A stretch of DNA of 64,000 bases, taken from Tardiphaga alba. Its GTDB lineage: Bacteria; Pseudomonadota; Alphaproteobacteria; Rhizobiales; Xanthobacteraceae. Below, piece by piece: positions 21,810 through 40,282 of this stretch (position 1 is the stretch's first letter; the number at the start of each line of letters is the position of its first letter). The DNA is taken from the NCBI RefSeq assembly GCF_018279705.1, contig NZ_CP036498.1, positions 3,303,001-3,367,000 of the forward strand, in the 5' to 3' direction. A program made the position numbers and the translations under genes. The notes under the pieces were generated by a model. The model saw nothing but the letters and a program-made list of their open reading frames with translations, made no database searches and was not told the DNA's origin.

Positions 21810-21978
21810 GACAAACTCCCCGATCGATCATTGAGACAGCGCTCTGTGCGGCGCGTTGATTTTCTGTGGTGCGGACTATTCGGATTCAGTGAAATCCAGT
21901 GTCTCAAACACACCAGCGAATGACTACCAGTATTCGCCCGACACTGAGAAGTTCGGGGCGGACATGGCCGCCCCTCGT

Positions 21979-24900
21979 TCAATACTCGATCTCGGTCCCG
22001 ATCCCGATCGATGTCGCGCCGGTGCCCGAGGCCTCGCCCTGCAGGCGCAGGCGGCGGGTGAGATCGATATCGAGCGTGACGGCGGAATCCTTGGCGGCAG
22101 CTGCGCCTTTCACGCCGACGCTGACGCGGCTGTTGATGGCGCGCGCGGCGCCGACGCTGGGGCCGCCGGCACCGCCGGCCGAAATATCCAGCGCATCAAC
22201 GCCGAGCGAGCGACGCAGGCGCTCCATCGTGTCCGGTCCGCCATCGCCCGAGAACTGCGCCACCATCTGCGCAAGCTGCACCGCCTGGAACGGCGACAAC
22301 CCACCGGATGCCTTCGAGAACATGATGCGCGACAGCACCTCGTCTTGCGGCAGGTCGGGCGACGAGCTGAACGCGAATGTCGGCGCCGAGGCGATGCCGC
22401 TGACCGTGATCTGTGCGGTCACATCGCCCGCCTGGGTCTGCGCGACAAAATCGAGTTCCGGCGTCACCTCGCCGCTGAAGGTCGCGCGGCCACGGCTGAA
22501 ATCAAGCCGCGTGCCGGCCACCTGCAGCTTCCCACGCCGCATCTCGAACGCACCGATGGTCACCGGTGACGCCAGCCGGCCGGTCAGGCGCATGTCGCCG
22601 CCGAGCTCGGCATCGATGCCACGACCGCGCACGAAGACGCGATTGGGTGCCGCGATGGTGAGGTCGAGCCCCGCGTCGAAAGGCGGCGCCCGCTTGGTGC
22701 GCTTTCGGGCCTTCTCTTCTTTCTCAATTGCCTGCCGAACATGTTCGGGCGCATCCACATGGCGTGTACCAGCCAGCGGCTTCAACGTGGATGGCAGCCG
22801 CTCCGGGACATTGACGTCGAGGCCATCGACATCAATGCGCCCGGTGATCCGGGGATCGCGCATCAGCGGGCCCGCAATGCGCAGGTTCGGGCTGGCGCGC
22901 ATCTTCATGATGGCGTTCGACGCCAGCAGCACGTCGCGGCCGGAGACCTGGATCGAACCGGGCAGACCGGCGTCGGGATCGATGCGGATATTGCCGCTGG
23001 CATTCAGGCTGCCGCCATTGGCGCTGGTCGCGGTGAAGCGCTCGATCACCACGTCTTCGTTACGCGCGGCGATCCGTGCGGCGATGCCAGTGAGCTTGGT
23101 GCCAAGTTCGACATCGTCGAACGTGCCGCCCGACAGCGTCGCCGCACCATTGAGCTTGGGCTTGTCGAGCGCACCGGTCACGCGCAGGTCGATATCCGAG
23201 CGCCCCGACAGCCGACGTCCCTGCGGCGACAGATGGCCGTTGGCCGCGGCAAGATCGAGCGATCCCTTCACCGCGAGATCGAGCGCTCCACGCTGTAGCG
23301 GGATCTTCCCGGCGGCGCGCAACTGGCCGAGGCGCGGCGCGCTGACCTGCGCATCCAGTGTAGTCTGCCCCTCGCTCAGGCGACCGCTGGCCTGAATGCC
23401 CATCGGCGCCAGTGCGAATTCACGCGTCTGCGCCGCTGCGAGCCCCGCGATGGCCACGCGCCAGTCTCCGCTCGGCGCCTGCGCGGTCCCGGTGACGCGG
23501 GCCTGCGCATCGAGCGTCCCCGCAAGCCCGAGCTGCGGCGCCACGGCATTGGCGACGGCGAGCGGCACGGCCTTGGCCGACAGCGTCAGATCGAGCGTGT
23601 CACCAGCCGTCCCATTCACGCTGAGCACACCGCGATCCAGCGCCAGCGCGAAGTCGCGGATATCAATGGCCGAGCCACGCAGCGTGAACGATGCCGGTCG
23701 TGCCAGCGCGATGCGACTGCTCTCGTAGCGCGCTGTCAGCGCCGAGAGATCGAGGCGGATGTCGTTGGCCGGCACCAGCATGGCCCGCAGATCGGCCCCG
23801 ACACGCTTGCCGTTCAGCTTCAGCGTGATGTCGCTGCCCGATGTCGTGCTGCGCGAGGCCACGCGGACGCTCTGGACCACCTCGCCCGCGATGCTCGCAT
23901 TGTCGATGGCGACATTGCCGTCCGCCATCGGACGTCGCCAGATGTCGCGCAACGCCGCTTGCACATCGACCTTGCCGATCGCATCGCTCGCATATTTGAG
24001 CCCCTGTCCGCGCAATGCGATCTGTGCATTCTGCGCGCCTGCCTCGGTGGTGAAGTTCAGACTGGCATCGAAGGCGCCGGCCAGTTTGGCCAGCAGCAGT
24101 GGCGACAGGTCATCGAGATTGCCGGCAGACGCCGCAAGCTGCCCCGACAGCAGATGCTCCGCATCCAGCGCGATGACACCGCGCGCAGCGACGGAACCGA
24201 CGCGCAAATCGAGATCATCGACCCGCCAGCCGCCGTCACTCTGCTTCGCCACATGCAGACGCCCATTCGCGGAGTTGCGATCGATGATGCCATCGAGCGT
24301 CGCCTTGGCGTCGAGCGCACCGGTGACGTCGGTTGCGGCGAGTTCAAGCGTGACGCGCGGCACTGGACGGCCGGAAGCCCGCACATCGTTCAGTGCCATC
24401 GCGACATGGGCATTAAGCTTGCCGAGCGATCCACTGAGCTGCGCATTTGCCTCGGCCTGCCCGCTCAGTGTCTTGTCGGCATGTGACAGCTGCGGGATCT
24501 GCACGACGGCGCTGATCGCAGCGTTTTCTCTGGTGGCATCGCCATGCACGCGTGCACCAATATGGCGGCCGGCAATGCGCAGATCGTCGAAGCCGTACCC
24601 TGCACCGGGCAGCGTGCGGACGGTGCCCGCGAGATCGACCGTTCCGCCGGTAAGTCCATCGACCTGTCCGATCCCGGTCGAGAGACCAGTCAGCTTGCCA
24701 TCGAGCCGCGCGTCGATCCGTCCGGCGTCGGGGCTGCCATCGAGTTGCGCTCCGAATGCCAACGCACCGCGGAGCTTGAGGCCAGCCAATGCGCCAAAAC
24801 GCGCGAGATCGGACGAGGTGATATCGGCCCGGCCTTTCAGTAAGGGACCGCCGACCTGTCCGGCGAACGAAGCGGCTGCGGTTTCCGTCTGCAGCTGCAA

Positions 24901-26313
24901 CGTCTGCACATCGACGATGCCCGCACGGCTCGTACCCGCGAACATCAGCGAAAGTGACGACCCGACAGCGCTGTCGATAGCCGCGTCACTCGCATGCAAG
25001 CCCGTTGCCTTGACCTGCCCCGTCAGTTTGACCGTCGTGTCCTTTTCAAGCAGCGAGCCCGCCGGCGTTGCGTTGAACGACGCGTCGATCTGCCCGAAAC
25101 GGCCCTGCGGTAATTTTGCGTCGCGCAGCGCGGCTGTGGCGGCGACCTGCGGTCCTGACAGCGCGCCCTTCACCGTGGCATCAAAGGCCAACGTCTTGAT
25201 GCCGATATCGTTGACCTCGGTGGCGTCGCCCGTATTCGGCAAAGCGCGCATGCGGATGGTGAGATCGGCGACCTGCTCCGCATCGACGGAGCCGCCGATA
25301 TCCATGCGCGCCAGTTTCGACACCACTGACAACGGCTCGATGCGGATGCCGCCGTCCGGCGCGAAACCGATACTGCTGTTCAGCCGGGTGGTGCCGGCGA
25401 AGATCGGCTGGATCACCGACGGCAACAGCCCCTCGATGCGCGCACCGAGATCGAGGCTCAGCCGACGTCCATCGGCCTGTCTGGTCAGTTGCGCAGCGCC
25501 ATCGGCACCTGTGCTCGGTCCGGCATCGAAAGCCAGCTTTGCATCGAACGCATCCAGCGTGCCGGTGCCGCGCAGGTCCAGTTTGGCGGCCGGGAGATCA
25601 GCAACCTTGAGCAACCGCACCACGATGCCGCCAGGCGCTTCGTCGAGGGTCAGCATGGTCTGCAGCCGTCCGCTCGCCGGGATGTAATCAAGCTTTGCTG
25701 CAAACACGCCCTGCGCATCGAGCCGTCGCGCATCGAGCGTCAGCGCGAGGCCTTCGGCGGGATTGCCAAGCACGGCCTGGCCGGCTGCCGTGAGCCGGGA
25801 GGCAACGCCGAGCAGCGGCTCGCCGAGGGACAGTTCCGCCAGCGCAAAGGATTTCAGCTCCACCTTGACGGGGATGGTGGGCAGCAGCGGCTCATCGGGC
25901 TGTGCTGTCTGACCGGGCGGCGATTGTTCGGGAACAATCGTTGCAGGTGTCGGCAGCGGCTTGCGATGGATGGCGAGACGGCCGACATCGAGCTTGTCGA
26001 TCTCAAGCCTGCCCGCCAGCAGCGCCGTGCGGCGCCACACCAGCCTGATCTTGTCGAGCTTGAGCCAGACGCCATCCTGATCGGCGATCGAGACATCGCT
26101 GACGGTGACATCCGATGTCAGCACGCCCGAGACGTCACCGATCGAGATTTGCGCCGCCGGTGTCGATAGTGCGCGCGAGATCAGATTGGCGAGCAGCCCC
26201 TTGTCGTCGCCCTGCCCGCGCAATGTGAAATGGAGAAACGCATAGCCCGCGACGCCGAGCAACAGCACGAATGCGGCAAGACCAATGAATATGGTTCTGC
26301 GGCGTAACCGCAT
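21979..26313 (-). CDS. tamB: TamB-like translocation and assembly module protein
   Basis: 1444 residues. An N-terminal signal-anchor (RTIFIGLAAFVLLLGVAGYA) is followed by a very long repetitive beta-rich body, as in bridge-like AsmA/TamB proteins that span the periplasm, and by the conserved C-terminal DUF490 region (FMFSKASGGLSPFQAVQLAQ-like, then RLRLQGEASGTGATSIGIG). It works with TamA in inserting outer-membrane proteins and/or moving phospholipids. The start at 26313 (MRLRRRTIF) lies one base after the tamA stop, so the pair is translationally linked. The antisense strand also has long open frames, an effect of GC-rich codon use. Confidence 0.92.
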   Translation of the reverse strand: MRLRRRTIFIGLAAFVLLLGVAGYAFLHFTLRGQGDDKGLLANLISRALSTPAAQISIGDVSGVLTSDVTVSDVSIADQDGVWLKLDKIRLVWRRTALLAGRLEIDKLDVGRLAIHRKPLPTPATIVPEQSPPGQTAQPDEPLLPTIPVKVELKSFALAELSLGEPLLGVASRLTAAGQAVLGNPAEGLALTLDARRLDAQGVFAAKLDYIPASGRLQTMLTLDEAPGGIVVRLLKVADLPAAKLDLRGTGTLDAFDAKLAFDAGPSTGADGAAQLTRQADGRRLSLDLGARIEGLLPSVIQPIFAGTTRLNSSIGFAPDGGIRIEPLSVVSKLARMDIGGSVDAEQVADLTIRMRALPNTGDATEVNDIGIKTLAFDATVKGALSGPQVAATAALRDAKLPQGRFGQIDASFNATPAGSLLEKDTTVKLTGQVKATGLHASDAAIDSAVGSSLSLMFAGTSRAGIVDVQTLQLQTETAAASFAGQVGGPLLKGRADITSSDLARFGALAGLKLRGALAFGAQLDGSPDAGRIDARLDGKLTGLSTGIGQVDGLTGGTVDLAGTVRTLPGAGYGFDDLRIAGRHIGARVHGDATRENAAISAVVQIPQLSHADKTLSGQAEANAQLSGSLGKLNAHVAMALNDVRASGRPVPRVTLELAATDVTGALDAKATLDGIIDRNSANGRLHVAKQSDGGWRVDDLDLRVGSVAARGVIALDAEHLLSGQLAASAGNLDDLSPLLLAKLAGAFDASLNFTTEAGAQNAQIALRGQGLKYASDAIGKVDVQAALRDIWRRPMADGNVAIDNASIAGEVVQSVRVASRSTTSGSDITLKLNGKRVGADLRAMLVPANDIRLDLSALTARYESSRIALARPASFTLRGSAIDIRDFALALDRGVLSVNGTAGDTLDLTLSAKAVPLAVANAVAPQLGLAGTLDAQARVTGTAQAPSGDWRVAIAGLAAAQTREFALAPMGIQASGRLSEGQTTLDAQVSAPRLGQLRAAGKIPLQRGALDLAVKGSLDLAAANGHLSPQGRRLSGRSDIDLRVTGALDKPKLNGAATLSGGTFDDVELGTKLTGIAARIAARNEDVVIERFTATSANGGSLNASGNIRIDPDAGLPGSIQVSGRDVLLASNAIMKMRASPNLRIAGPLMRDPRITGRIDVDGLDVNVPERLPSTLKPLAGTRHVDAPEHVRQAIEKEEKARKRTKRAPPFDAGLDLTIAAPNRVFVRGRGIDAELGGDMRLTGRLASPVTIGAFEMRRGKLQVAGTRLDFSRGRATFSGEVTPELDFVAQTQAGDVTAQITVSGIASAPTFAFSSSPDLPQDEVLSRIMFSKASGGLSPFQAVQLAQMVAQFSGDGGPDTMERLRRSLGVDALDISAGGAGGPSVGAARAINSRVSVGVKGAAAAKDSAVTLDIDLTRRLRLQGEASGTGATSIGIGTEIEY

Positions 26314-26314
26314 G

Positions 26315-28291
26315 TCAGAACGCCTGGCCGATGCCGACGTAAAACGCATAGGCGGATTCGCCCGGTCGCTTGTTGATCGGCAAAGCGACATCGAGGCGGA
26401 TCGGCCCGATGGCGGTGTAATAACGCAGGCCGACACCCGCCGCGACGCGCATCTCCTCGCCAAAGTTCGAATAGCCCGAATTGAACGCGCCGCCGACATC
26501 GACGAAAGGCACGATGCCGATCGTATCGGTCACCTTGATGCGCGCCTCGAACGAGGCTTCCAGCAGATTGCTGCCGCCGACCACTTCACCGGTCGGGCCG
26601 AGCGGACTGATGCTGCGATAGCGGAAACCGCGCACCGAGCCGCCGCCGCCCGCATAGAAGCGGTGATTAGCGGGGATCAGCGCGGTGTCGGCGCCGAACA
26701 GCGAACCGGCCGCCACACGGCCGGCCAACACGTATCGCGCGGACTCGTCGAGCGCGCGATAGACCGAGGCCTGCGCGCGCGTTTCGGTAAAACTGACCGA
26801 CGAGCCCAGCCAGTCCGGATAGGTCGCGGCAAAGCCTTGCAGACGGATGCCCTTGGTCGGGTCGAGCGCATGATCCGTGGTGTCGTAGGAGACCTGCACG
26901 GGAATGCCGACCAGGTGATAATCGACTGTGCCAAGCGTATCGGTGGTGCGGCCGACGTCACCTGCAATGCCGATCTGTGCAGAGAACGTATCGCTGAAGC
27001 GATGGCGGATCGATGCGCTCGCAGTCGCGCGCTCGCTCTCATAGCCGCCATAGCGGTCGCCACCTGTGCGGTCCCGCTCGACCATGCCATCCAGCAGCAG
27101 ATCGTTGCGCGAGCCGTTCAGCGCCGGTTTGATGAACGTGGTGCGCAGACGTCCACCGAGGTCGGAGAAGCCGAAATCGCGCAGCGTATCCAGTGCGCTT
27201 TGATTGGTGCGCGGCGGCACGAAGATGTCGGCCTCGACTCGCAGGCTCTCGGCGCCGCCGAACAGGTTGCGGTGCTGCCAGTAGCTGCGGAGGCTCGGCC
27301 CATCCAGCGTCGAGAACCGGGCGGATGCACCCAGCACATTGTTGGGACGTTCGGTCACCTCGGCCGTGAACGGCAACTGCCCGGCGCTGTTGAGGTCGCG
27401 CGCCTCGCGCACGCGGACCGTCTGGATCGCCGGCACCTGCAGAACCGATTTGCGAATACGCGCGATCTGGTCTGGCGAATAGGGATCGCCCGGTGCCGGA
27501 TAGATATACGACTGCACCACGCGTGGATCGACATTCGTCGTGCCGCTGACCGTGACCTCGCCGAAGCCGGCGCGCGGACCGCGATCGATCACGAAGGTGA
27601 TGTCCATGGTGCGGTTGCGATGATCGACCAGCGGCTCGGCATCGCGCGCCCGCACCAGCGGATAGGACTGCGCGCGGAAATAATCGACGATGGCTCCCTG
27701 CGCCGCCTGCAAGTCCCCTGCACTTGCCCCCATCCCAGGCGCGATCTTCATCACATGGGGCGGCAGTGTCTGCGCATCGAACGGCCGCATGGTGGCGGCA
27801 TCGACCACCGAGATGTTGCGCAGTTTGAACAGGGAGCCCGGCGCTACCCGCACCTTGATGGGAACGAGGCCGCTATTGCGGAATTCTTCTGCCTTTTGCG
27901 CGGCCGTTGCGCCGTCTTCACGCAGCGGCACTGATGCAATCTCGATCGTCACCGATGCATCGTAATAACCGGAGCCCCACAGTGCCCGCAGCATCGGCTC
28001 GGCATCGAGCTGCGCACGCCGCACCAGCATCTCGCCATCGGCAGGCGGATCGGTGCGCAGCTTGTGCAGATTGGAGACGTCCTTCAATGCCTGCACGGCA
28101 GTCTTATCGACACCATCGGCATCGAATTCGACCTTGTATGGCAACGTGTTCGGCGAAACTTTCGGCGTATCGTCGCCGGTGACCCATGCAATCGGGTCGA
28201 ACGCCAGCGCGTCGGCTGGATGAACGGCAACAACCAAAGCAGCAGCAGAGAAACAAACCAATAGATCGGAAGAAAATTTCCGCAGTCGCAT
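26315..28291 (-). CDS. tamA: TamA-like BamA-superfamily outer-membrane protein
   Basis: 658 residues: signal peptide (about 1-30), N-terminal POTRA domains (SVVDAATMRPFDAQTLPPH; FGEVTVSGTTNVDPRVVQSY; YSPDQIARIRKSVLQVPAIQ), then a C-terminal 16-strand barrel region with the RFYAGGGGSVRGFRYRSISP loop motif and the terminal phenylalanine (YVGIGQAF) recognised by the Bam machinery. It is first gene of the tamA-tamB operon. ATG at 28291 is taken; a GTG one codon upstream is equally open. Confidence 0.92.
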   Translation of the reverse strand: MRLRKFSSDLLVCFSAAALVVAVHPADALAFDPIAWVTGDDTPKVSPNTLPYKVEFDADGVDKTAVQALKDVSNLHKLRTDPPADGEMLVRRAQLDAEPMLRALWGSGYYDASVTIEIASVPLREDGATAAQKAEEFRNSGLVPIKVRVAPGSLFKLRNISVVDAATMRPFDAQTLPPHVMKIAPGMGASAGDLQAAQGAIVDYFRAQSYPLVRARDAEPLVDHRNRTMDITFVIDRGPRAGFGEVTVSGTTNVDPRVVQSYIYPAPGDPYSPDQIARIRKSVLQVPAIQTVRVREARDLNSAGQLPFTAEVTERPNNVLGASARFSTLDGPSLRSYWQHRNLFGGAESLRVEADIFVPPRTNQSALDTLRDFGFSDLGGRLRTTFIKPALNGSRNDLLLDGMVERDRTGGDRYGGYESERATASASIRHRFSDTFSAQIGIAGDVGRTTDTLGTVDYHLVGIPVQVSYDTTDHALDPTKGIRLQGFAATYPDWLGSSVSFTETRAQASVYRALDESARYVLAGRVAAGSLFGADTALIPANHRFYAGGGGSVRGFRYRSISPLGPTGEVVGGSNLLEASFEARIKVTDTIGIVPFVDVGGAFNSGYSNFGEEMRVAAGVGLRYYTAIGPIRLDVALPINKRPGESAYAFYVGIGQAF

Positions 28292-28901
28292 CACATTCCA
28301 AAGACGATTGCGCGCTCAACCCCGAGACATCTAAAGAGCGCTTTCGGACATAGTTCGGCCAAATACGGCGAAGGTGTGAGCCAAACAAGAACGCGATTTC
28401 GCCAAAATCTCGCTGGGGTCGCGTGGCGCATCGATGCAACGTAGGCGCATCGTCGAGATCGCGGATCGTCCTTTATTTATAGGGTTCCCGCGTCTCAAAC
28501 TACGTATTGTCATATTGCCGCATGCGGAGATTTATTTGCGCAGATGCTGGAACATTGCGGGTTCCCGCATCGTGCCGACGCAGCGCGCGTTTATCTCGCT
28601 TGCAAGATGCAACCGGCGACGAGCGATCAGGGGCCGATTCCCTGAGACTTCACCGGCCGAATGCGCACCACTGGTTACTTCGCATCCGCAACACACGTGC
28701 CTGTGAAGTCCGCTCGTCCGCTGCTCTGCTAGCATTTCGTCACTCACCATGGAGGGCATCACCCCCACCACATCCGATCATCCAGATGACATCTGCTCAT
28801 CCGGCCTTGCGGGCGCGCAAGAGCTGCCGGGGAGCCGAGACCGGGACGCATGCGATGCGCTCCCGTCCACCATCGAAGCTTACAAAGAGCGAGGAACGAT
28901 C
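28292..28901. other. 610-base divergent region between tamA and iorA-like gene
   Basis: Must hold the promoters for tamA (leftward) and the molybdoenzyme island (rightward). I find no convincing small gene, RNA or terminator. Several short frames are open on both strands but have no start signals or recognisable products. Confidence 0.5.
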
Positions 28902-29354
28902 ATGGTCACACTCAATATCAACGGAAAATCGCAGACATGGGACGGAGATCCCGATCTCCCTTTGCTCTGGTATCTGCGCGACGAGCTCGGGCTCACAGGC
29001 ACCAAATATGGCTGCGGCCAGGCTCTGTGCGGCGCCTGCACCGTGATGATGGACAAACAGGCGATCCGCGCCTGTATCACATCCGTCTCCGATGCCGCCG
29101 GCCAGCCGATCACCACCATCGAGGGCCTGCATCCAACCGGTGATCACGTGGTGCAGAAAGCTTGGCGTCAGGAGAACGTGCCGCAATGCGGTTTCTGCCA
29201 GGCCGGCCAGATCATGCAGGCCGCAGCCCTGCTCGCCGAAAATCCAAAACCGTCAGGCGACCAGATCCGCGAGGCGATGTCCGGCAACATCTGCCGCTGC
29301 GGCTGCTACCAGCGCATCCAGAACGCCGTTCATCTCGCATCCACGGGGGCCTGA
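28902..29354 (+). CDS. iorA: [2Fe-2S] subunit of an isoquinoline 1-oxidoreductase / aldehyde dehydrogenase-type molybdoenzyme
   Basis: 150 residues. The plant-type [2Fe-2S] cluster is seen as [16 protein letters not shown] and C-RACITSV, and the second cluster as [10 protein letters not shown] and ICRCGCYQR, the two-cluster pattern of xanthine-oxidase-family small subunits. It passes electrons from the molybdenum subunit to an outside acceptor. GAGGAA lies just before the ATG at 28902; an upstream in-frame extension to 28749 has no family counterpart. The large subunit starts one base after this stop. Confidence 0.9.
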
Positions 29355-29355
29355 C

Positions 29356-31673
29356 ATGAACATCGCTTTCGACCCAGCCAGCACGCGCAGCTCAGCGCCA
29401 CACGCCAGCAAGGTAGAAAACCTCTCCCGTCGCAGCATCCTGAAAGGTCTCGGGATCGCCGGAAGTTTTGTTCTTGCCTCGCCCCTCCTTTCGCGCCCGT
29501 CCTTTGCCTATGAGACCGGCGCCAGCAAGATGCCGCACGGCGTCGTCGTCGATCCAAAAATCTTTGTGGCCATCGCGCCCGACGGCAAGGTGACGATCCT
29601 CGCGCATCGCGCCGAGATGGGCACCGGTATCCGCACCAGCCTGCCCCTCGTCGTGGCCGAAGAGATGGAGGCCGACTGGACCCGTGTGACCGTCCAGCAG
29701 GCCCATGGCGATGAAGCGCGCTTCGGCAATCAGGACACCGACGGTTCGCGCAGCACGCGTCACTATCTGATCCCGATGCGCCAGATCGGCGCCTGTGCCC
29801 GCTTCATGCTCGAAAACGCCGCCGCCAAGAAATGGGGCGTCGCGCGCGCCGAGGTGAAAGCCGTCAATCACACCGTGACCCATCCCGCGACTGGCCGCAG
29901 CCTCGGCTTCGGCGATCTCGCGGATGCCGCAGCGAAGGAGCCGGTGCCTGCCCTCACCGAGATCACGCTGAAAGATCCCAAGGACTTCAAATATCTCGGC
30001 AAGGGCACCGTCAGCATCGTCGATCTTCACGACATCACCACGGGTGCCGCGCATTACGGTGCGGACATCCGCCTCCCCGGCATGAAATACGCCGTCATCG
30101 CCCGCCCGCCGGTAACTGGCGGCACGCTTGCATCATTCGATGCGACAGATGCGATGAAGGTCCCGGGCGTCGAGAAAGTCATGGAGGTCAAAGGGTGGCC
30201 GTGGCCTTCGAAATTCCAGCCGCTCGGCGGCGTGGCGGTGATCGCGCGCAACACCGGCGCGGCGATCAAGGGCCGCGATGCGCTCAAGATCAAATGGAAT
30301 GACGGCGCCAATGCCAGCTACGATTCCGCAGCATTCCGCACGACCCTCGAGGCGGCGACACGCCAACCTGGCCTTGTCGTCCGCAAGGAAGGTGATGCGG
30401 ATGCGGCATTGAAAGGCGCGGACAAGGTGCTGGTCGGCGAATATTACGCGCCGCATCTCGCTCATGCGAGCATGGAGCCGCCGGTCGCCGTCGCGCATGT
30501 CCAGGGGACAAGGTGGAGATCTGGGCACCCGTGCAAAGCCCTGGCGGCACTCGCGGCGATGTCGCCAAGACCCTCGGAATCCCTGAGGAGAACGTCACCG
30601 TCAACGTGACGCTGCTCGGCGGTGGTTTCGGACGAAAATCGAAATGCGATTTCGCGCAGGAAGCTGTGCTGCTGTCGAAGGAACTTGGCGCCCCCGTCAA
30701 AGTGCAATGGACGCGTGAGGACGATGTCCAGCACGACTTCTATCACACCGTCTCGATGGAGCGGATCGAGGCCGGCCTCGACAAGAGCGGCAAGGTTATC
30801 GCCTGGCGTCATCGTAGCGCCGCGCCCAGCATCGCATCGACCTTCGCCGCTGGTGCCGTGCATGAGCTTGGCCTCGAACTCGGCATGGGCCTGATCGACG
30901 TGCCGTTCGAGATCGCCAATCTGCAATGCGAGAATCCGGAAGCAAAGGCACAGACGCGGATCGGATGGTTCCGCTCGGTGTCCAATATACCGCGCGCCTT
31001 TGCCGTGCAGTCCATGGTCGGCGAAATCGCCTATGCCACCGGTCGCGATCAGAAGGATGTGTTGCTCGACCTGATCGGCAAGCCGCGCATCGTCGACCTG
31101 TCCTCGGTCAAGGAGCCGTGGAATTACGGCGAGCCCTATAGCAGCTATCCCATCGACACCGGCCGTCTCCGCCGCGTCGTCGAGCATGTGGCGGAGAAAG
31201 GCAAATGGGGGCGGTCAGTGCCGAAAGGCCATGGCCTCGGCATCGCCGTGCACCGCAGCTTTGTCGCCTATGTCGCGACCATCGTCGAGGTCGCCATCGA
31301 CGACAAGGGCAAGCTAAGCGTCCCTCAGGTCGATACGGCCATCGATTGCGGCACCTTTATCAATCCCGAGCGCATCCGCTCGCAGATCGAGGGCGCTGCG
31401 ATCATGGGGCTCAGCCTCGCCAAATATGGTGAGATCAGCTTCAAGGATGGCCGCGTGCAGCAGAAGAACTTTGACGACTATCAGGTCGTCCGGATCGATG
31501 ATGCACCGGCCATCACCAATGTGCACATCGTGCCCGCCGATCCCGATGCGCCGCCCAGCGGTGTCGGCGAACCCGGCGTGCCGCCATTCGCACCGGCACT
31601 GATGAATGCGATCTTTGCGGCCACTGGGAAACGCATCCGCAGCCTGCCGATCGGCAAGCAGCTGGAGGCGTAA
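29356..31673 (+). CDS. iorB: molybdopterin-binding large subunit (IorB-like), Tat-exported; one apparent frameshift
   Basis: About 772 residues when read through a -1 shift near GGGG at 30504-30507 (one added G gives [20 protein letters not shown]). A Tat signal (RRSILKGLG) lies about 30 residues in, so the IorAB complex is probably periplasmic. Moco-binding motif GGGFGRK and the catalytic glutamate loop [10 protein letters not shown] are present. The IorB/NicB-type family hydroxylates N-heteroaromatics or oxidises aldehydes using water and donates to a cytochrome. The substrate is unknown. Flanked by iorA and by mog, needed for the cofactor. Apart from the shift, nothing suggests decay. Confidence 0.82.
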
Positions 31674-31685
31674 CCGACGCAAACA

Positions 31686-31721
31686 TCACGCAGGATGGAG
31701 CCCACATTCCATCCTGCGTGA
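31686..31721. terminator. hairpin between convergent iorB and mog
   Basis: A perfect 14-base stem, TCACGCAGGATGGA (31686-31699) with TCCATCCTGCGTGA (31708-31721). It has no T tract but sits exactly between two converging genes, so it could end transcription from both sides. Confidence 0.5.
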
Positions 31722-31727
31722 CGCGCG

Positions 31728-32246
31728 CTACGCCGGTCTGAAACTGGCAAGCACAGCGGGATCGGTCTCGATCCGGCCGGCTCCGATGAGATCAAGGCAG
31801 TAAGGCACGGCGGGAAACACCGCTCGCAAGCATATGTCGATAGCCGCTGGTCGCCCCGGCAGATTGATGATCAAGGTCTGCCCACGAATACCCGCGGTTT
31901 GACGTGAGAGAATCGCAGTCGGCGTCTGTTCCAGACTGACGCGACGCATCAGCTCACCGAAACCGGCCAGCTCTTTCTCCATCACCGACTGCATCGCTTC
32001 TGGCGTTTCGTCACGCGGTGCCGGGCCCGTCCCGCCGGTGGTGAGGATTAGATCCACGGGATCGCGATCGCAATATTCCATCAGCGCGTCTGCAACCAGA
32101 GCACGTCCATCGGCGACCACACGGCGGACGAGTTCGAAGTCCGATGTCACAAAGCCGCGCAGGCACGCTTCGATCGCCGGTCCGCTGATATCTTCATAGT
32201 CTCCGCGGGCAGCCCTGTCCGATATCGTGATGATGGCAATGCGCAT
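31728..32246 (-). CDS. mog: molybdopterin adenylyltransferase (MogA/MoaB fold)
   Basis: 172 residues. MogA-type features: [22 protein letters not shown] opening in style, the [16 protein letters not shown] motif that binds molybdopterin, and [20 protein letters not shown] near the end. It adenylylates molybdopterin before molybdenum insertion. Placed inside the island between two molybdoenzymes, on the opposite strand to both, it probably supports their maturation. Confidence 0.9.
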
Positions 32247-32570
32247 TCTTCGTCTCCAACGCGATCAGCCGGTGCGAAATCCTTGGCGACGCCACGTATC
32301 TCACCTGACGCAACGCACGCGAAAGTTGTAGATCTACTTAAATTCCTACCAAAGCGCTCGCCCTTTCGACATTGATGTGCCGCAATGCGATACAAGCACC
32401 ATTACCACACCATAGCACCACCGTCGCGCAAGCCACTGACCTGATTCGTAAAATCGCGTCCCAGTTCGCATGCACGATCGGTTGGAGTGCAACGCCGCAT
32501 TTCCTGATCAACGGCCCAGCACCGCCAAAACACAACCTTGCCGCGAATATGTCGCGAGAAAGGATCGACA
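32247..32570. other. divergent promoter region between mog and the cytochrome gene
   Basis: 324 bases without a gene, holding promoters for both sides. The only motif I can name is a FixK-like box at 32372-32385. No RNA gene or hairpin terminator is seen. Confidence 0.5.
32372..32385. promoter_or_regulatory. candidate FixK/FNR-family binding site
   Basis: TTGATGTGCCGCAA fits the Bradyrhizobium FixK2 pattern TTG(A/C)-N6-(T/G)CAA. It lies 186 bases upstream of the cytochrome start and 126 from mog. Oxygen-limited expression would suit a TMAO/DMSO-type reductase operon. One short degenerate motif can occur by chance in several hundred bases. Confidence 0.35.
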
Positions 32571-34211
32571 GTGTCAGGACCTCGCAAGACCAGGAAAGCT
32601 CTGCTGACGAAGGGAATTGCCATAACGGCTCTCCTCGGCGTTGCAGGCTTTTTCACTCTCACATCTCCGTGGGCGTGGTCGCTCATCCATCCGTCGCGCG
32701 ACGTCGCCGATAGCGGACCGGCCGATCTCAAGAACGGCCGCGACGTGTTCGTCGCGAGCGATTGCGCGACATGTCACGCCACACCGAACCAGCCGGACCA
32801 TCTCAAGCTCGGCGGTGGCCGGGTTCTCGATACCGAGTTCGGCAAGTTTCGCATGCCGAACATCTCGTCCGATCCGAAGGACGGCATCGGCGGCTGGACC
32901 CTCGCACAATTCACGCGCGCGGTGCGCGAAGGCGTCGGTCCCGCAAAATTCCTGCCGGATGGGCAGAACCTCTATCCGTCCTTCCCCTACACGTCCTATC
33001 AGCGCCTGAGCGCCAATGACGTGCGCGACATGTTTGCCTTCATGAAGACCCTGCCGGCCGTCGCCGGGAAGGTACCCGACCACGAGCTGAAGTTTCCCTA
33101 CAATATCCGCCGCGGCATCGGCGTCTGGCGTCTTGCCTTCCTCGACGGCAAGCCGCTCGACGACAACGCGGCACAGGCCGGCAAGACGGGAGCCCCGCTT
33201 TCGCAGGCCGACCTCGTCGCGCGCGGCCGCTATCTGGTGGAAGGCGCGGGCCACTGTGCCGAGTGTCACTCGCCGCGCAACTTCATGGGCGTGATTGCCG
33301 ATGCCAAGCGCTATGGCGGCGGACAGGCGCCCGATGGCAAATCATTCTTCCCCAATATCAGCCAGCATGACACCGGCATCAACTTCTGGGCCGAGGCATC
33401 TATCGTCTCGTACCTGAAGACCGGCATCAGCCCACTCGGCAAGACGGCGGGCGGCGACATGGCCGAGGTCATCGCCAACACCAAGCAGCTTCCGGACCGT
33501 GATCTCAAGGCCATTGCGGCCTATCTGAAGACGCTGCCAGGTGTCGATAATCCCGCACCGGGCCAGCCATCGCCGAACTACACGGCGAAGGTCGTCACGA
33601 TCCCCGTACAGAAGAACGAGGTGCCGCTGCCGACATCGACTGCTGCCGACATCGCGAAATCTCCGGTGCTGTTCACCACGGCGACCAAGCCGCTTTATCT
33701 CGACCAGGCCGCGATGAGGGATGCCACCAAGAGCAGCGGCAAGCTGCTCGGCGCCGCCAAGCTCATGGTTGAAGAACGCCAGGGCGATCGGATCAAGGTC
33801 CGTCTCGACGGCTGGCAGCCGGAAGGCGTCACCTCGGTTGTCTATGCCGCGCGCGGCAAGCGCATCGTGGCCGCCGTCCTCGACGAGGATGCCATCGCCA
33901 AGGTCGAGCGGGGTGCGTTCGAAACCGACAAGGACTCTGGCGCCCGCTGGGCCCAGGTGAAGGCAAGCATCTGGATCGACAGCGCCGGCCTCAACGTGAA
34001 GCAGGAAAATCTGTGGCAGTTCTCATCGAACCTGCTGTCGAGCAGTTGTTCAACTTGCCACTCGCTGAATACGCCGGAGCATTTTACGGCCAATCAGTGG
34101 ATCGGCACACTCGGCGCAATGCGGCGCTACACGTCGCTCAGCAATGATGAGTACCGCCTGCTCCTCGCTTATGTACAGAACCACGCGAAGGACATGGGGG
34201 GACATCACTGA
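32571..34211 (+). CDS. triheme cytochrome c: di-heme dehydrogenase-type part fused to TorC C-terminal monoheme domain
   Basis: 546 residues. An N-terminal signal-anchor (15-35) is followed by two class-I-like hemes (CATCH at 65-69, CAECH at 229-233) with spacing and motifs (NISSDPKDGIGGWT, GRYLVEGAGHCAECHSPR) of cytochrome subunits of gluconate, alcohol and aldehyde dehydrogenases. Residues about 370-546 match the TorC C-terminal region instead (GKRIVAAVL, CSTCH at 493-497, HFTANQWIG, NHAKDM). The tetraheme NapC half of normal TorC is absent. GTG at 32571 is chosen (AAAGGA six bases before it). The stop overlaps the torD-like start (TGATG). Probably a membrane-anchored periplasmic electron carrier to the TorA-like enzyme. 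Confidence 0.85.
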   Translation: MSGPRKTRKALLTKGIAITALLGVAGFFTLTSPWAWSLIHPSRDVADSGPADLKNGRDVFVASDCATCHATPNQPDHLKLGGGRVLDTEFGKFRMPNISSDPKDGIGGWTLAQFTRAVREGVGPAKFLPDGQNLYPSFPYTSYQRLSANDVRDMFAFMKTLPAVAGKVPDHELKFPYNIRRGIGVWRLAFLDGKPLDDNAAQAGKTGAPLSQADLVARGRYLVEGAGHCAECHSPRNFMGVIADAKRYGGGQAPDGKSFFPNISQHDTGINFWAEASIVSYLKTGISPLGKTAGGDMAEVIANTKQLPDRDLKAIAAYLKTLPGVDNPAPGQPSPNYTAKVVTIPVQKNEVPLPTSTAADIAKSPVLFTTATKPLYLDQAAMRDATKSSGKLLGAAKLMVEERQGDRIKVRLDGWQPEGVTSVVYAARGKRIVAAVLDEDAIAKVERGAFETDKDSGARWAQVKASIWIDSAGLNVKQENLWQFSSNLLSSSCSTCHSLNTPEHFTANQWIGTLGAMRRYTSLSNDEYRLLLAYVQNHAKDMGGHH

Positions 34212-34909
34212 TGCCGATGACCGCCCAAACCCGCGGCGCCGGCAGCCTTGCTGCCTGTCCCGCGAGGGCGGAGGTCGATGCCTCTGCCCTCCTCGCCGAC
34301 TGGTTCGCCCACCGCCTGCTGGCACCGATGCAGGCCTGCGACGTCAAGCAATTGCAAACCGCCGAAGGCCGGCACTTTGTCCGCAGCCTTGGCGACGCGC
34401 TGGACTGCGAAGCCGCAGCCCATGCCTTGCTCGCCGCGGCCGGTGATGCGCCAGCGGTGGCCGAAGTCCGATTGTCCCGCGACTATCTGCTGCTGTTCGA
34501 GGGTATCAACGGGCCGAAGTCGATCTCGCTCTATGAGAGTAGTCATTGCGGCAACGGAGTTGGCTTGTTTGGCGCGCCGTTCGTCGAGATGCAGGAAATC
34601 CTGCGCGCGCTCGACATCCGCCTCGACGATCCCTGCCGCGAGCCGCCGGACCATCTCGCCATCGAACTCGCCGCATTGGCCAAGGCGCTACGCCTCGGCA
34701 AACGCGACATCGCCGATGGGCTCGTCACGCGGCTGTGCCGCTGGACACCCTCAATCGGCGGCGCGGTGACGACCAGTCCTCACTGCGGCTTCTATCGCCA
34801 CCTCTTCGCGCTGCTCGATGCGTTCCTCGTTGCAACGGCGTCGCTGCTCCGGCCGACAGCCGACCGCGCTCCCCATGCCTATCAGGAGGCAGATCATGCC
34901 CGTCACTAA
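34211..34909 (+). CDS. torD: TorD-like molybdoenzyme chaperone
   Basis: 232 residues; a mostly helical TorD/DmsD-family protein that binds the Tat signal and immature form of a TorA-type reductase until the cofactor is inserted. Seen: LSRDYLLLFEGI, SLYESSHCGNGVGLFG, the hallmark PPDHLAIELAAL, and the FYRHLFALLDAF end. Its ATG overlaps the cytochrome stop by one base, and its 3' end overlaps the reductase by 14 bases, so the three genes form one tightly coupled operon. Confidence 0.85.
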   Translation: MPMTAQTRGAGSLAACPARAEVDASALLADWFAHRLLAPMQACDVKQLQTAEGRHFVRSLGDALDCEAAAHALLAAAGDAPAVAEVRLSRDYLLLFEGINGPKSISLYESSHCGNGVGLFGAPFVEMQEILRALDIRLDDPCREPPDHLAIELAALAKALRLGKRDIADGLVTRLCRWTPSIGGAVTTSPHCGFYRHLFALLDAFLVATASLLRPTADRAPHAYQEADHARH

Positions 34910-37406
34910 TGTTCGCACATCCTCGCATCTCGATCGTCGCTCATTCCTCAAGAGCGCAGCTGCGCTGGCCGCGCTTGGCGTCGGCGGCACGCCCCTATTC
35001 ACCAGAGGCGCGCTGGCCGCAGCACCGGAGACGCTGCCGCTTTCAGCATCGCATTGGGGCGTGTTCCGCGCCCGTGTGAAGAACGGCCGCTTCGAGGAAG
35101 TCATCCCGTGGGAAGGCGACAAGCATCCAAGCGTCATGCTCCAGGGCATGCGCGACTCCATCTACTCGCCGACCCGCATCAAGTATCCAATGGTACGCCG
35201 CGCCTGGCTCGAAAAAGGACCGGGTGCCGATCCCGAAGGACGCGGCACCGGCGATTTCGTCCGCGTCAGTTGGGACAAGGCGCTCGACCTCGTTGCGGCC
35301 GAGATGCAGCGGGTCCGAAAGGCCCATGGCAACACCGCCATCTATGGCGGTTCCTATGGCTGGAAGAGCGTCGGCAAGGTGCATAGCTGCCGCGTGCTGC
35401 TGTGGCGCATGCTGAAGCTCACCGGTGGCTTCGTCAGTTCGGTCGGCAACTATTCGAATGCCGCCGCCTCGGTGATCCTGCCCCATGTCATCGGCTCGGC
35501 CGGCGTCGTCGATCAGTGCACCACCTATGAGATGCTGGCCAAGCACTGCAAGGTGCTGGTGATGTGGGGATGCAACCCCATGAACACCTCCAACATCGCC
35601 TGGATGGTCCCCGATCACGGCTACATGAAGCATCTGGACGAGGTGAAGAAGGCCGGCGTCAAGCTGATCTGCATCGACCCCGTCCGCACCGAAACCTGCC
35701 AGCATTTCGGCGGCGAATGGGTCGCGGTGAAGCCGCAGACCGACGTGGCGATGATGCTCGGCATCGCCCATGTCCTTTATTCCGAGAAGCTGCATGACGA
35801 GGCGTTCCTGAAGAAGTACGCCACCGGCTTCGAGGACTTCCGCAAATATCTCGTCGGCGAAACTGACGGCGTCGCGAAGACAGCAGACTGGGCAGCGGCG
35901 ATCTGCGGCGTGCCTGCGGACAAGCTGCGCGAGCTTGCCCATACCTTCGCCAAGAACCGCACCATGCTCTCCATGGGCTGGTCGACGCAGCGCCAGCATC
36001 ACGGCGAGCAGCCGCCATGGATGATGGTGACGCTGGCGGCCATGCTCGGCCAGATCGGCCTGCCCGGCGGTGGCTTCGCCTTCTCCTATCACTACAATGC
36101 CGGCGTGCCCTCGCACAATTCGCCGAGCGTCCCCGGCATGACCGACGGCCGCGGCCGTTCGCTCGCCGACCTGCCTCCGGGCTGCACGCCGGGCAACACC
36201 ACCTCCTACTGCATGGGTGATGCCGGCGTCTCGATCCCGGTCTCGCGCATCGTGGAAATGCTGCTCAATCCCGGCATGACCATCGATTTCAACGGCAGCA
36301 AGGTGAAGTATCCCGACATCAAGATGGCGTTCTGGGCCGGCGGCAATCCGTTCGCGCATCACCAGGACCGCAACGAGATGCTGCGGGCCTGGCGGAAGAT
36401 CGAGACCTTCGTCGTGAACGACTTCCAGTGGACAGCGACGGCGCGCCACGCCGACATCGTGCTGCCCGTCACCACCTCCTATGAGCGCAACGACATCGAG
36501 CAGGTCGGCGATTTCGCCCTCAGCCATATCGTGCCGATGCGCAAGATCGTGGAGCCGCTGTTCGAGGCCCGTTCGGACTACGACATCTATGCAGGCATCT
36601 GCGAACGGCTCGGGCTCAAGGAGCAGTACACCGAAGGCCTGACCGAGATGGACTGGATCCGGAACTTCTACGAAAAGGCCCGCATGACGGCCCGCTCCAA
36701 GGGCCAGGAACTGCCGGTGTTCAACGCATTCTGGAACAGCAATGACGCGCTAGCCTTCCCACTCGAGAAGCCGCAACGGGATTATGTGTCGTATGCTGCA
36801 TACCGCAACGATCCACTGCTCAGCGCGCTGGGCACGCCTTCGGGGAAGATCGAGATATTCTCCAAGGCGATCGCCAAGATGAAGTATGACGACTGCCCGG
36901 CCCATCCGACCTGGATGGAGCCGATCGAACGCCTCGACGGCCCGACGACGAAGTATCCGCTGCACATCGCGTCGAACCATCCGATCTACCGCCTGCATTC
37001 GCAGCTCTGCGGCACATCGTTACGGGAGAAGTATGCAGTCGCGGGTCGTGAGCCCTGCTGGATCAATCCGGTCGATGCCGACAAGCGCGGCCTGAAGGAC
37101 GGCGATGTCGCCCGCGCCTTCAACGATCGTGGCCAAATCCTGGTCGGTATCAAGATCTCGAAGGACATTCGCCCCGGCGTGATCCGCATCGACGAAGGCG
37201 GCTGGTATGATCCGGAGAACCCGCGCGAGGCTGGCACGCTGTGTCGCTACGGCGACGTCAACAACCTGACGCCGAGCGTGGCGACCTCCAAGCTCGCACA
37301 GGGCACCTCAGGACAGACCGGCAGCTGCGAGCTGGAGAAATATCAGGGCACGCCGCCGAAGGTGGCCGTGTTCGACGAACCGGCGAAGCAGGCCAGCGCC
37401 GGCTGA
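34896..37406 (+). CDS. torA: Tat-exported molybdopterin S/N-oxide reductase (TorA/DorA/BisC family)
   Basis: 836 residues. A Tat signal (LDRRSFLKSAA) is followed by the TMAO/DMSO reductase fold: WGVFRARVKNGR, RIKYPMVRRAWL, the molybdenum-ligand serine 153 in YGGSYGWKSVGKVHS, the MWGCNPMNTSNI and WAGGNPFAHHQDRNE pterin-binding stretches, and a C-terminal cap (SNHPIYRLHSQL, GREPCWINPVDA). It has no N-terminal Fe-S cysteine motif, as expected for this group. It reduces TMAO, DMSO or a similar oxide in the periplasm; sequence alone does not say which. AGGAGG precedes the ATG at 34896. A strong terminator follows. Confidence 0.9.
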   Translation: MPVTNVRTSSHLDRRSFLKSAAALAALGVGGTPLFTRGALAAAPETLPLSASHWGVFRARVKNGRFEEVIPWEGDKHPSVMLQGMRDSIYSPTRIKYPMVRRAWLEKGPGADPEGRGTGDFVRVSWDKALDLVAAEMQRVRKAHGNTAIYGGSYGWKSVGKVHSCRVLLWRMLKLTGGFVSSVGNYSNAAASVILPHVIGSAGVVDQCTTYEMLAKHCKVLVMWGCNPMNTSNIAWMVPDHGYMKHLDEVKKAGVKLICIDPVRTETCQHFGGEWVAVKPQTDVAMMLGIAHVLYSEKLHDEAFLKKYATGFEDFRKYLVGETDGVAKTADWAAAICGVPADKLRELAHTFAKNRTMLSMGWSTQRQHHGEQPPWMMVTLAAMLGQIGLPGGGFAFSYHYNAGVPSHNSPSVPGMTDGRGRSLADLPPGCTPGNTTSYCMGDAGVSIPVSRIVEMLLNPGMTIDFNGSKVKYPDIKMAFWAGGNPFAHHQDRNEMLRAWRKIETFVVNDFQWTATARHADIVLPVTTSYERNDIEQVGDFALSHIVPMRKIVEPLFEARSDYDIYAGICERLGLKEQYTEGLTEMDWIRNFYEKARMTARSKGQELPVFNAFWNSNDALAFPLEKPQRDYVSYAAYRNDPLLSALGTPSGKIEIFSKAIAKMKYDDCPAHPTWMEPIERLDGPTTKYPLHIASNHPIYRLHSQLCGTSLREKYAVAGREPCWINPVDADKRGLKDGDVARAFNDRGQILVGIKISKDIRPGVIRIDEGGWYDPENPREAGTLCRYGDVNNLTPSVATSKLAQGTSGQTGSCELEKYQGTPPKVAVFDEPAKQASAG

Positions 37407-37428
37407 TGCGACACTGACAAACAACAAA

Positions 37429-37454
37429 CCCCGCCGGGCGACCGGCGGGGTTTT
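37429..37454 (+). terminator. rho-independent terminator of the torA operon
   Basis: CCCCGCCGG (37429-37437), loop GCGA, CCGGCGGGG (37442-37450), then TTTT. It begins 22 bases after the torA stop. Confidence 0.85.
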
Positions 37455-37500
37455 GCGTTCATGGGTAACCGGTTTCGCAGGATGGGTTGAGCGAAGCACC

Positions 37501-38634
37501 TCAACGCGGCGCGATATCGCCTTTCGCCCAGCCTTCTTTCGTCGCGACGCGAAATTCCTCGAAGGTCCCGGCTTCGATCGCGGCGCGGATGCCCCGCATC
37601 AGGGTCTGGTAGTAGGCGATATTGATCTCCGACAGCAGCATCGCGCCCAGCGTCTCGTTGGCGCGCACGAGATGGTGCAGATAGGCGCGCGAATAGTTAC
37701 GCGCCGCCGGCCACGGGCTTTCTTCATCCAGCGGACGCGGATCGTCCTGATGCCGGGCATTGCGGATATTGATCTGGCCGTGGCGCGTGAAGGCCATGCC
37801 GTGGCGACCGTTGCGGGTCGGCATCACGCAGTCGAACATATCGACGCCGCGCGCGACAGCTTCCAGAATATCCTCGGGCGTACCGACGCCCATCAGATAG
37901 CGCGGCCGATCCGTCGGCAGGATCGGCGCGACTTCCTCGATCATCGCCAGCATGACCTCTTGCGGCTCGCCAACCGCGAGACCACCGATGGCATAGCCGT
38001 GGAAACCGATATCGATCAGCCCGCGCGCGCTCGCATGCCGCAGCGCCGGCACGTCACCGCCCTGTGCGATGCCGAACAGCATATAGCCGTCCGGCGCGCT
38101 CTCGAAGGCGCGCTTGCTGCGCTCGGCCCAGCGCAACGACAATTGCATGGCGCGCTCGATCTCGACAGGCTCCGCCGGCAGCCGCACGCATTCGTCGAGT
38201 TGCATGGCGATGTCAGAATTCAGCAGCCGCTGAATCTCCACCGCGCGCTCCGGCGTCAGCTCATATTTCGCGCCGTCGATATGCGAGCGGAAGGTGACTC
38301 CCTGCTCCGTGACCTTCCGCAGCTGCGCCAGCGACATCACCTGAAAGCCGCCGCTGTCGGTCAGCATCGGCCCATTCCACGTCGTGAACTTCTGCAGGCC
38401 ACCGAGTGCCGCAATGCGCTCGGCGCCCGGCCGCAGCATCAAATGATAGGTGTTGCCCAGCACGATATCCGCGCCGGCATCGCGCACCTCACGCCAGTGC
38501 AGCCCCTTCATGGCGCCGATGGTACCCACCGGCATGAAGGCCGGCGTCCGCACCACACCATGCGGCGTGGTCAGGCGACCGAGGCGCGCGGCGCCATTCG
38601 AGCCGAGCAGTTCAAAGTGATTGGCGACGGTCAT
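37501..38634 (-). CDS. tgt: queuine tRNA-guanine transglycosylase, lacking the zinc ligands
   Basis: 377 residues, normal length. It exchanges G34 for preQ1 in GUN-anticodon tRNAs. Catalytic parts are intact: TDSGGFQ with Asp93, GGLAVGE, and [13 protein letters not shown] with the nucleophile Asp268. The usual zinc site is gone: the C-x-C-x2-C segment reads ESPWPAARN (Ser306, Trp308, Ala311) and the later histidine of 'IHNL' is Ile337. The surrounding fold sequence ([16 protein letters not shown]) is well kept, so this is a substitution of the site and not decay. The start overlaps the queA stop by four bases (ATGA). Confidence 0.95.
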
Positions 38635-39713: not shown

Positions 39714-39737
39714 GGTCTCAACGGCTATAAAACGTGG

Positions 39738-39785
39738 ATGCCCGGGACATCCAGCGAAGCAACGCTTCGCGTATGGCCCGGGCAT
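39738..39785. repeat. palindromic intergenic element upstream of queA
   Basis: Outer arms ATGCCCGGG (39738-39746) and CCCGGGCAT (39777-39785), with inner arms GCGAAGC (39754-39760) and GCTTCGC (39764-39770). This two-tier palindrome resembles the REP/BIME-type elements scattered in Bradyrhizobium-group genomes. Only one copy of this type is seen in the window. Confidence 0.55.
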
Positions 39786-39814
39786 GACGTCGTCAGGAAA
39801 AACGAAGGCGTCGA

Positions 39815-40282
39815 TTACTCAGCCTTGTCGGCAGCCATGTACGCCTTCACGATCTTGTCCGGGTTCTGCACGGGTTCGCCGCGCTTGATCTTGTCGACAT
39901 TCTCCATGCCTTCGGTGACCTTGCCCCAGACGGTGTACTGCTTGTTCAGGAACGACGCATCGTCGAAGCAGATGAAGAACTGGCTGTCGCCGGAATCCGG
40001 GCTGGCGGCGCGGGCCATCGAGGTGGTGCCGCGCACATGCGGTTCGGCGTTGAATTCGGCCTTCAGCTTTTTGCCCGAGCCGCCGGTGCCGGTGCCCTGC
40101 GGGCAGCCGGTCTGCGCCATGAAGCCGTCGATGACGCGATGGAACACGATGCCATCGTAAAAGCCTTCGCGCACCAGTTCCTGGATGCGGGCGACGTGGC
40201 CGGGAGCCAGGTCCGGGCGCATCTCGATGGTGACGTTGCCCTGGGTGGTTTCGAGGATCAGAGTATTTTCGGTGACAGCCAT
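39815..40282 (-). CDS. ppiB: cyclophilin-type peptidyl-prolyl isomerase, cytoplasmic
   Basis: 155 residues with no signal peptide. Cyclophilin active-site landmarks: [37 protein letters not shown], and the loop around [12 protein letters not shown]. It catalyses proline cis/trans isomerisation in folding. It is paired with an exported paralogue 420 bases upstream; the TonB-like gene between them overlaps this start by 25 bases. Confidence 0.93.

Follow-up and report, generated by a model that had tools for sequence, protein, structure and literature searches.

Cytochrome subunits of the alcohol, aldehyde and fructose dehydrogenases are triheme proteins. TorC, as described in section 2.7 of PMC11727998 (a paper accessible in part), begins with a tetraheme domain, which a hinge connects to a C-terminal heme domain (TorCC), and the model given there lets the latter swing on the hinge from the N-terminal domain to the funnel of TorA and back. 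TorCC is proposed as the electron donor to TorA, and the accessible part of the same paper attributes strong TorA binding only to TorC and its N-terminal half; the contact with TorA that a preliminary description of the present locus ascribed to the C-terminal domain should accordingly be taken with caution. According to the same partly accessible source, TMAO is the sole substrate of Escherichia coli TorA, unlike R. capsulatus DorA.

The window, i.e., the whole stretch of 64,000 nucleotides of Tardiphaga alba DNA analysed here, contains a gene for a cytochrome in which a di-heme module of the dehydrogenase type is joined to the C-terminal part of TorC. The fusion is real and conserved. As a naturally occurring domain swap, in which the input half of TorC is parted from the TorA-facing arm, it has a bearing on the question of what in TorC is essential; it is informative on this point because the TorA-binding N-terminal half (PMC11727998, in its accessible part) is missing and only the C-terminal part is kept. 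A search of the literature by title and by the start of the abstract, with subscription journals mostly outside reach, found no prior description of the fusion, and in plasmid records its genes are annotated merely as "cytochrome c" or "diheme cytochrome".

Architecture of the fusion cytochrome

The gene (32571..34211, forward strand, as are all the features of the protein given below) was delineated as an ORF with a GTG start at 32571 and a stop at 34209-34211 and assigned by profile and sequence matches. It encodes 546 amino acids with three c-type hemes, the CxxCH motifs lying at residues 65, 229 and 493. An N-terminal hydrophobic helix, predicted by AlphaFold 2 at residues 6-30 (32586..32660), is a probable uncleaved membrane anchor, and is followed by a juxtamembrane motif of the approximate form TSPWxWSxxHP, which includes the fusion-specific Trp36 and His40. 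Sequence, fold and Pfam matches define a di-heme module at residues 51-327 (32721..33551) of the type found in CycG and in the cytochrome subunits of aldehyde, alcohol and fructose dehydrogenases (ALDH, ADH, FDH). The TorC hinge region (residues ~360-475, 33648..33995), named after section 2.7 of PMC11727998, is beta-rich and mostly of high confidence in the AlphaFold 2 model, its limits being approximate; the TorCC-type monoheme domain (residues ~476-546, 33996..34208), recognised by TIGR02162, by the match to E. coli TorC and by conservation, carries the heme-3 site CSTCH (34047-34061) and the candidate axial ligand Met517 (34119-34121).

The matches of residues 51-325 and 360-545 bear out the preliminary description, which had proposed a dehydrogenase-type di-heme module fused to the TorC C-terminal domain. 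In sequence searches, residues 51-325 matched the fructose dehydrogenase cytochrome subunit 7w2j_C (E 7.4e-45), the stretch 46-327 the alcohol dehydrogenase subunit 8gy2_B (E 8.8e-43) and the stretch 17-322 the aldehyde dehydrogenase subunit 8gy3_A (E 2.7e-40). A fold search with the AlphaFold 2 model (heme-free, mean pLDDT 75.9, pTM 0.62, with residues 126-139 near heme 1 below 50) gave as matches for the di-heme module 8gy3_A (E 7.2e-17), 8jej_C (6.7e-16), 8gy2_B (1.8e-15) and 7w2j_C (4.6e-15), and the alignments with the Gluconobacter dehydrogenase cytochromes cover 274-315 columns, corresponding to their two N-terminal heme domains; a fold search in BFVD gave no match at E 0.001. Matches to class-I Cytochrom_C Pfam models fall within residues 1-330. 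The QcrC model (a di-heme bc1 subunit) was matched by 8 of 41 fusions at E up to 1e-5, with the window protein scoring 20 bits against a cut-off of 200. The best matches of the N-terminal module in the genomes of 60 relatives are standalone di-heme cytochromes (43-52% identity), closer than the solved dehydrogenase subunits.

Residues 360-545 align with positions 202-385 of the 387-position NCBIfam torC model TIGR02162 (E 3.1e-41) and with residues 205-380 of E. coli TorC (32% identity, E 2e-27). The score of 141.9 bits lies far under the model cut-off of 478.2, and no match of the whole protein to TorC was obtained. TIGR02162 was matched at E up to 1e-5 by all 41 members of the family alignment, which comprises 40 of the 45 intact fusions and the window protein. 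Scanned alone, the C-terminal 186 residues passed no Pfam cut-off (best DHC, E 0.064), so that this part is not closer to class-I cytochromes, and the motifs HFTANQWIG, CSTCH and NHAKDM, by which the domain had been recognised, are all present. The absence of a NapC half, also put forward earlier, was confirmed: the Pfam search for PF03264 gave no match at E up to 1, and there are only three CxxCH motifs. By position, the hinge and the heme domain of TorC are kept in the fusion and the tetraheme domain is gone. Judged by sequence, the fusion cytochrome is probably a TorC analogue with an exchanged input half, which works like TorC without being a member of the pentaheme TorC family.

The heme-1 site of the di-heme module, a CxxCH motif, is CATCH at residues 65-69 (32763..32777). 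Phe138 (32982-32984) replaces here the Met of the YPAMPY motif of fructose, alcohol and gluconate dehydrogenases (FDH, ADH, GDH), a residue which we take to be the axial heme-1 ligand in those proteins; all 45 fusions and all 52 standalone modules show this replacement, which is not unique to them, since the aldehyde dehydrogenase subunit 8gy3 likewise has Phe at this position. Three other residues mark the fusions: Met95 (32853-32855) is present in 45/45 fusions and in 0/52 standalone modules, which have Val, Ala or another residue there, Trp36 in 55 of 57 fusion rows versus 2 of 60 standalone rows, and His40 in 52 of 57 versus 1 of 60. The location of Trp36 and His40 beside the membrane helix and of Met95 near heme 1 suggests a rebuilt heme-1 region, with all three residues as candidate heme ligands or quinol-site residues. 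The heme-2 site, assigned by CxxCH and conservation, is CAECH at residues 229-233 (33255..33269), together with Met297 (33459-33461), conserved in 45/45 fusions and 52/52 standalone modules. In the arm, Met517, Trp460 and Trp510 are invariant in the 81 rows compared (47/47 fusions, 29/29 TorCs, 3/3 free second copies and 2/2 others).

The operon, its reductase and its surroundings

Downstream of the cytochrome, which is the first gene of the series cyt-torD-torA, lies a gene for a TorD-like molybdoenzyme chaperone (34211..34909, forward strand; PF02613, E 2.1e-15; TorD model, E 1.1e-12 and 48.3 bits, under the cut-off of 132), followed by one for a TorA/DorA-type S/N-oxide reductase (34896..37406, forward strand). 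The cytochrome stop and the torD start share the sequence TGATG (34209-34213), and the ATG of torA (34896) lies inside torD; the three genes are read as a single overlapping operon. A search for FNR boxes with up to two mismatches found one upstream of the operon (32372-32385), but such sites are frequent window-wide (33 versus 16.6 expected) and no conclusion is drawn from it.

The reductase has a twin-arginine-like signal region (PF10518 just under cut-off) and scored 1099.6 bits with TIGR00509, the S/N-oxide reductase model, above the cut-off of 1017.55; the nearest solved structure is Rhodobacter DMSO reductase 1e18_A (1058.8 bits), the best TMAO reductase reaching 840.7. It contains the DMSO-reductase motif GGSYGWKS, and the row of E. 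coli TorA has a gap at SYGWKS. The Tyr/Trp motif SYGW plays a role in substrate choice. SYGW[KQR]S occurs in all 54 fusion-linked reductase rows and in many pentaheme-linked ones as well; among the 28 pentaheme-linked or E. coli rows there are 16 that are not recorded with the exact sequence AGSYGWKS or TGTYGW, and the motif is therefore exclusive to neither group. By this motif the window reductase would be classed as DorA-like and not E. coli TorA-like, and a broad range of S/N-oxide substrates is likely.

The operon is part of a ~15.6-kb stretch (21883..37502) that also includes tamAB-like and iorAB-like genes and mogA, and is missing in the congener G012, where the regions corresponding to window positions 20704-21882 and 37503-39918 are only 93 bases apart. 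This is a clean empty site in one of the four congener stretches compared; of the others, G017 carries ~11 kb without a match between the two flanking regions, and G013 and G009 yielded the right flank alone. The TamA-like gene of the stretch (TamA/TamB-like calls were made by Pfam) was matched in none of the 17 congeners at E 1e-50, and in these congeners, some of which are incomplete drafts, no match reached the TorC arm. G+C content is 0.59-0.68 over positions 20000-44000, with no sign of foreign origin. The IorB/aldehyde-oxidoreductase-like large subunit is encoded in two overlapping ORFs on the forward strand (29353-30609 and 30513-31673) beside an intact 2Fe-2S subunit gene (28893-29354), probably owing to a frameshift or an assembly error. 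The nearest relative, Azorhizobium oxalatiphilum (L069), resembles the window in having a mogA (84% identical) close to the fusion, but gave no IorAB-like match.

Distribution and origin of the fusion

Genome contigs were scanned with seven fusion proteins, the scan being driven by two peptide patterns; 491 relatives were obtained and the best 80 of the 491 kept. Of these 80 loci, 49 (L069-L117) showed matches to the two modules together, a lower bound in view of the pattern-driven scan, and the remaining 31 to nothing but the di-heme part. Forty-five of the 49 are intact, with three hemes in a single frame, and belong to many genera, while four (L077, L098, L113 and L117) are interrupted in frame. 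Carriers include Azorhizobium (79% identical), Bradyrhizobium, Rhodopseudomonas, Azospirillum, Rhodovulum and Cereibacter, also Bartonella (apis, apihabitans, choladocola and uncultured) and Commensalibacter, and further Halomonas, Marinobacter, Lautropia, Paraburkholderia and Cupriavidus. Six plasmid loci, from 29 plasmid records with a TorC arm, and one more genome locus, L192, add to these, so the same fusion does recur in other genomes, as the preliminary description had asked. As for the number of such genes adjoining TorA, which it also asked for, torA lies directly downstream, within 1.5 kb, in all 56 fusion loci besides the window. A torD gene is located between fusion and torA in 52 of the 56 (it is missing in L063, L067, L078 and L086), and a divergent histidine kinase is found in 18. 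No TorA match was found at any of the 31 di-heme-only loci (4.8-21 kb).

The TorC arm was found in 25 of 397 genomes of the order sample, where the 30 arm loci examined, of 38 matches, comprise two fusions (the window and L034, which is probably the same locus as L084), 27 pentaheme proteins and one other architecture (L057). In the phylum sample the arm occurs in 24 of 398 genomes; the 16 arm carriers examined besides the window comprise one fusion (L192), 14 proteins with a NapC half and one with neither.

Several arm proteins of other make-up were encountered. In genome G122 (L191, 5675-6649), a gene adjoining a torA-like gene encodes a 324-aa protein with a TorC arm and a C-terminal class-I heme domain (PF13442, PF00034), by its sequence a further architecture of the arm. 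At L176, L177 and L185 a second, separate TorC-arm protein is encoded behind torC-torD-torA (33, 35 and 31% identical to the window arm, respectively); these proteins may be TorB-like partners in organisms that also have TorC. Among the 31 standalone di-heme loci (L118-L148), 10 are preceded by a cytochrome c' gene and 12 by a molybdenum-hydroxylase gene, with one representative of each confirmed by Pfam.

Three quick LG+G4 trees were built. In the TorA tree (74 rows, leaving out L110, L117, L188 and L204 with short or missing TorA, one duplicate and nine near-copies), the 45 fusion-linked rows lie on one side of a branch with SH-aLRT 99, and their sister group under midpoint rooting consists of 13 pentaheme-linked TorAs sharing order or class with the window. 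The di-heme tree, built without near-copies and without matches that were shorter than 250 residues or contained stops, separates the 45 fusions from the 52 standalone modules with support 100. In the TorC-arm tree (without L077, which has a stop, and the same nine near-copies) a single branch likewise sets the fusions apart, its support being as low as 32. Because the fusion-linked TorAs and the di-heme modules each form one clade, with weak agreement from the TorC-arm tree, the NapC half of a dorCDA-type operon was probably replaced once by a CycG-like di-heme module, with subsequent horizontal spread.

Electron input and comparison with known systems

The proposed mechanism builds on the architecture, the operon and the clade structure, which are evident in the sequences. 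The membrane-anchored CycG-like di-heme module would oxidise ubiquinol at the membrane face, and electrons would pass from heme 1 to heme 2, to the swinging TorCC heme and to the Mo of the periplasmic DorA-like reductase, which would reduce an S- or N-oxide of the TMAO, DMSO or methionine-sulfoxide class. The hinge and TorCC arm would move between heme 2 and the reductase, like the TorC arm in the published model. We infer the direct oxidation of ubiquinol, the order of the hemes, the docking of the arm and the substrate. The reading of the protein as a TorC analogue as a whole, direct ubiquinol path included, seems to us somewhat better than an even bet. Against it speak the dehydrogenase relatives of the module, in which electrons flow the other way, from substrate to quinone, as well as the QcrC matches, the low support in the TorC-arm tree and the moderate quality of the AlphaFold 2 model.

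Quinone and cytochrome markers were searched in 50 carrier genomes (that of the window and 49 others), among which are drafts and MAGs, so that absences may reflect missing data. The NapC/NirT family was not found in 30 of the 50, including two Bartonella chromosomes titled complete, and nothing NapC-like was therefore seen to feed the reductase there; the window genome has one tetraheme NapC-like protein. The earlier expectation that the donor differs from the textbook route accordingly holds for the protein that accepts the electrons; the pool that supplies them may be quinol all the same. MenD exceeded the cut-off in one carrier (G447), the sub-cut-off matches present in all 50 being read as related thiamine enzymes, and MqnA/D exceeded it marginally in another (G471, 27.3 bits versus 26); by these two markers no menaquinone pathway was seen in 48 of the 50 carriers.

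The main alternative is that the di-heme module is fed by the bc1 complex, directly or via a soluble cytochrome c, and passes electrons on to the TorCC arm, comparable to the chain QcrABC-TorB-TorA proposed for Campylobacter. Cytochrome c1 of bc1 was found in 48 of the 50 carriers, the two without it being MAGs, and this would suit such a feed, but it is weak evidence, given that bc1 is to our knowledge near-universal in the carrier lineages. The presence of bc1 was also considered as a discriminator between the routes and discarded, as it does not separate them. The G122 protein, with TorCC and a different class-I heme beside a TorA-like gene, would fit a feed by cytochrome c, the weak QcrC matches of 8 of 41 fusions point the same way, and Campylobacter TorB, a free TorCC homologue, is proposed to be Qcr-fed in the accessible part of PMC6195509. 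According to the same source, however, it is thermodynamically unfavourable to reduce TMAO with ubiquinol against the proton-motive force; together with the lack of menaquinone markers in 48 of the 50 carriers, this favours direct, non-electrogenic oxidation of ubiquinol, and we regard the feed by bc1 as possible but rather unlikely.

A quinone-free chain, in which electrons from a periplasmic dehydrogenase would reach the reductase via the cytochrome, is suggested by the best structural match (the Gluconobacter aldehyde dehydrogenase cytochrome 8gy3_A), by the molybdenum-hydroxylase genes upstream of 12 of the 31 standalone loci and, in the window, by the IorAB/aldehyde-oxidoreductase-like molybdenum hydroxylase genes (28893-31673) just upstream of the operon, whose IorB weakly matches three di-heme-only loci (L126, L133 and L135, with the complexity filter off). 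These genes are, however, separated from the operon by mogA on the opposite strand, IorB is split over two frames, and no IorA or IorB match was found at 55 fusion loci (49 genome and 6 plasmid loci, some ending at a contig edge), on which ground the IorAB link was rejected as a family-wide function; for the window such a chain appears improbable. Hardly more credible, and if anything less so, is a reductase running in reverse (e.g., in sulfide oxidation), with the di-heme module passing electrons to quinone. The known ADH, ALDH and FDH cytochromes do run in that direction, from substrate to quinone, but the downstream enzyme exceeds the cut-off of the S/N-oxide reductase model, and the arm is that of TorC, which is proposed to deliver electrons to TorA (PMC11727998, accessible part). 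A chance fusion, an assembly error or a decaying, functionless gene, which the in-frame interruptions in 4 of 49 relatives might recall, can practically be dismissed for the window and is ruled out for the family by conservation, 45 of 49 loci from many genera having all three hemes in one frame and a conserved operon order.

If the di-heme module does oxidise ubiquinol, as in the mechanism preferred here, it would be a quinol dehydrogenase of a non-NapC type, and a role in respiring S/N-oxides or in repairing methionine sulfoxide would then fall to genes annotated simply as "cytochrome c" or "diheme cytochrome". Quinone appears in the name of one of the module's solved relatives, 'alcohol dehydrogenase (quinone), cytochrome c subunit'. 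A more general picture, to which we give about equal chances of being right or wrong, would be that of a quinol dehydrogenase unrelated to NapC/NrfH, in which a dehydrogenase-type class-I di-heme module, ordinarily reducing quinone, is run backwards as a ubiquinol oxidiser on a mobile TorC arm. The arm would then serve TorA-type reductases as an all-purpose adaptor, its four known inputs being NapC (in TorC), no module at all (TorB-like), CycG-type di-heme (the fusion) and another class-I heme (G122).

The CycG-like standalone di-heme cytochromes share with the fusion 43-52% identity, a hydrophobic N-terminus and Phe at the heme-1 Met position, but lack the TorCC domain, a torA neighbour (31 loci) and Met95 (0/52). 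The name CycG goes back to the annotation of the fusion in Rhodovulum and to the cycFG operon. The Gluconobacter aldehyde (8gy3), alcohol (8gy2) and fructose (7w2j) dehydrogenase cytochromes have in common with the fusion the two N-terminal class-I heme domains; their third domain, however, carries another class-I heme (their triheme nature is taken in part from the accessible text of PMC6472588) and they conduct electrons away from a dehydrogenase, whereas the third domain of the fusion is TorCC and its partner is a reductase. Campylobacter jejuni TorB (Cj0265) likewise has a TorCC domain without a NapC half, but exists as a free and soluble protein with one heme, for which a feed by menaquinol and Qcr is proposed (PMC6195509, accessible part), while the TorCC of the fusion is attached to a di-heme module that has a membrane helix, and most of the organisms concerned show no menaquinone markers. 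With TorC/DorC of E. coli and Rhodobacter (TIGR02162) the fusion shares the hinge and the monoheme C-terminal half, the neighbouring torA and often torD, and the presumed job of feeding a periplasmic S/N-oxide reductase; it differs from them in having a class-I di-heme module instead of the NapC-like tetraheme half, three hemes instead of five, and a score under the TorC cut-off.
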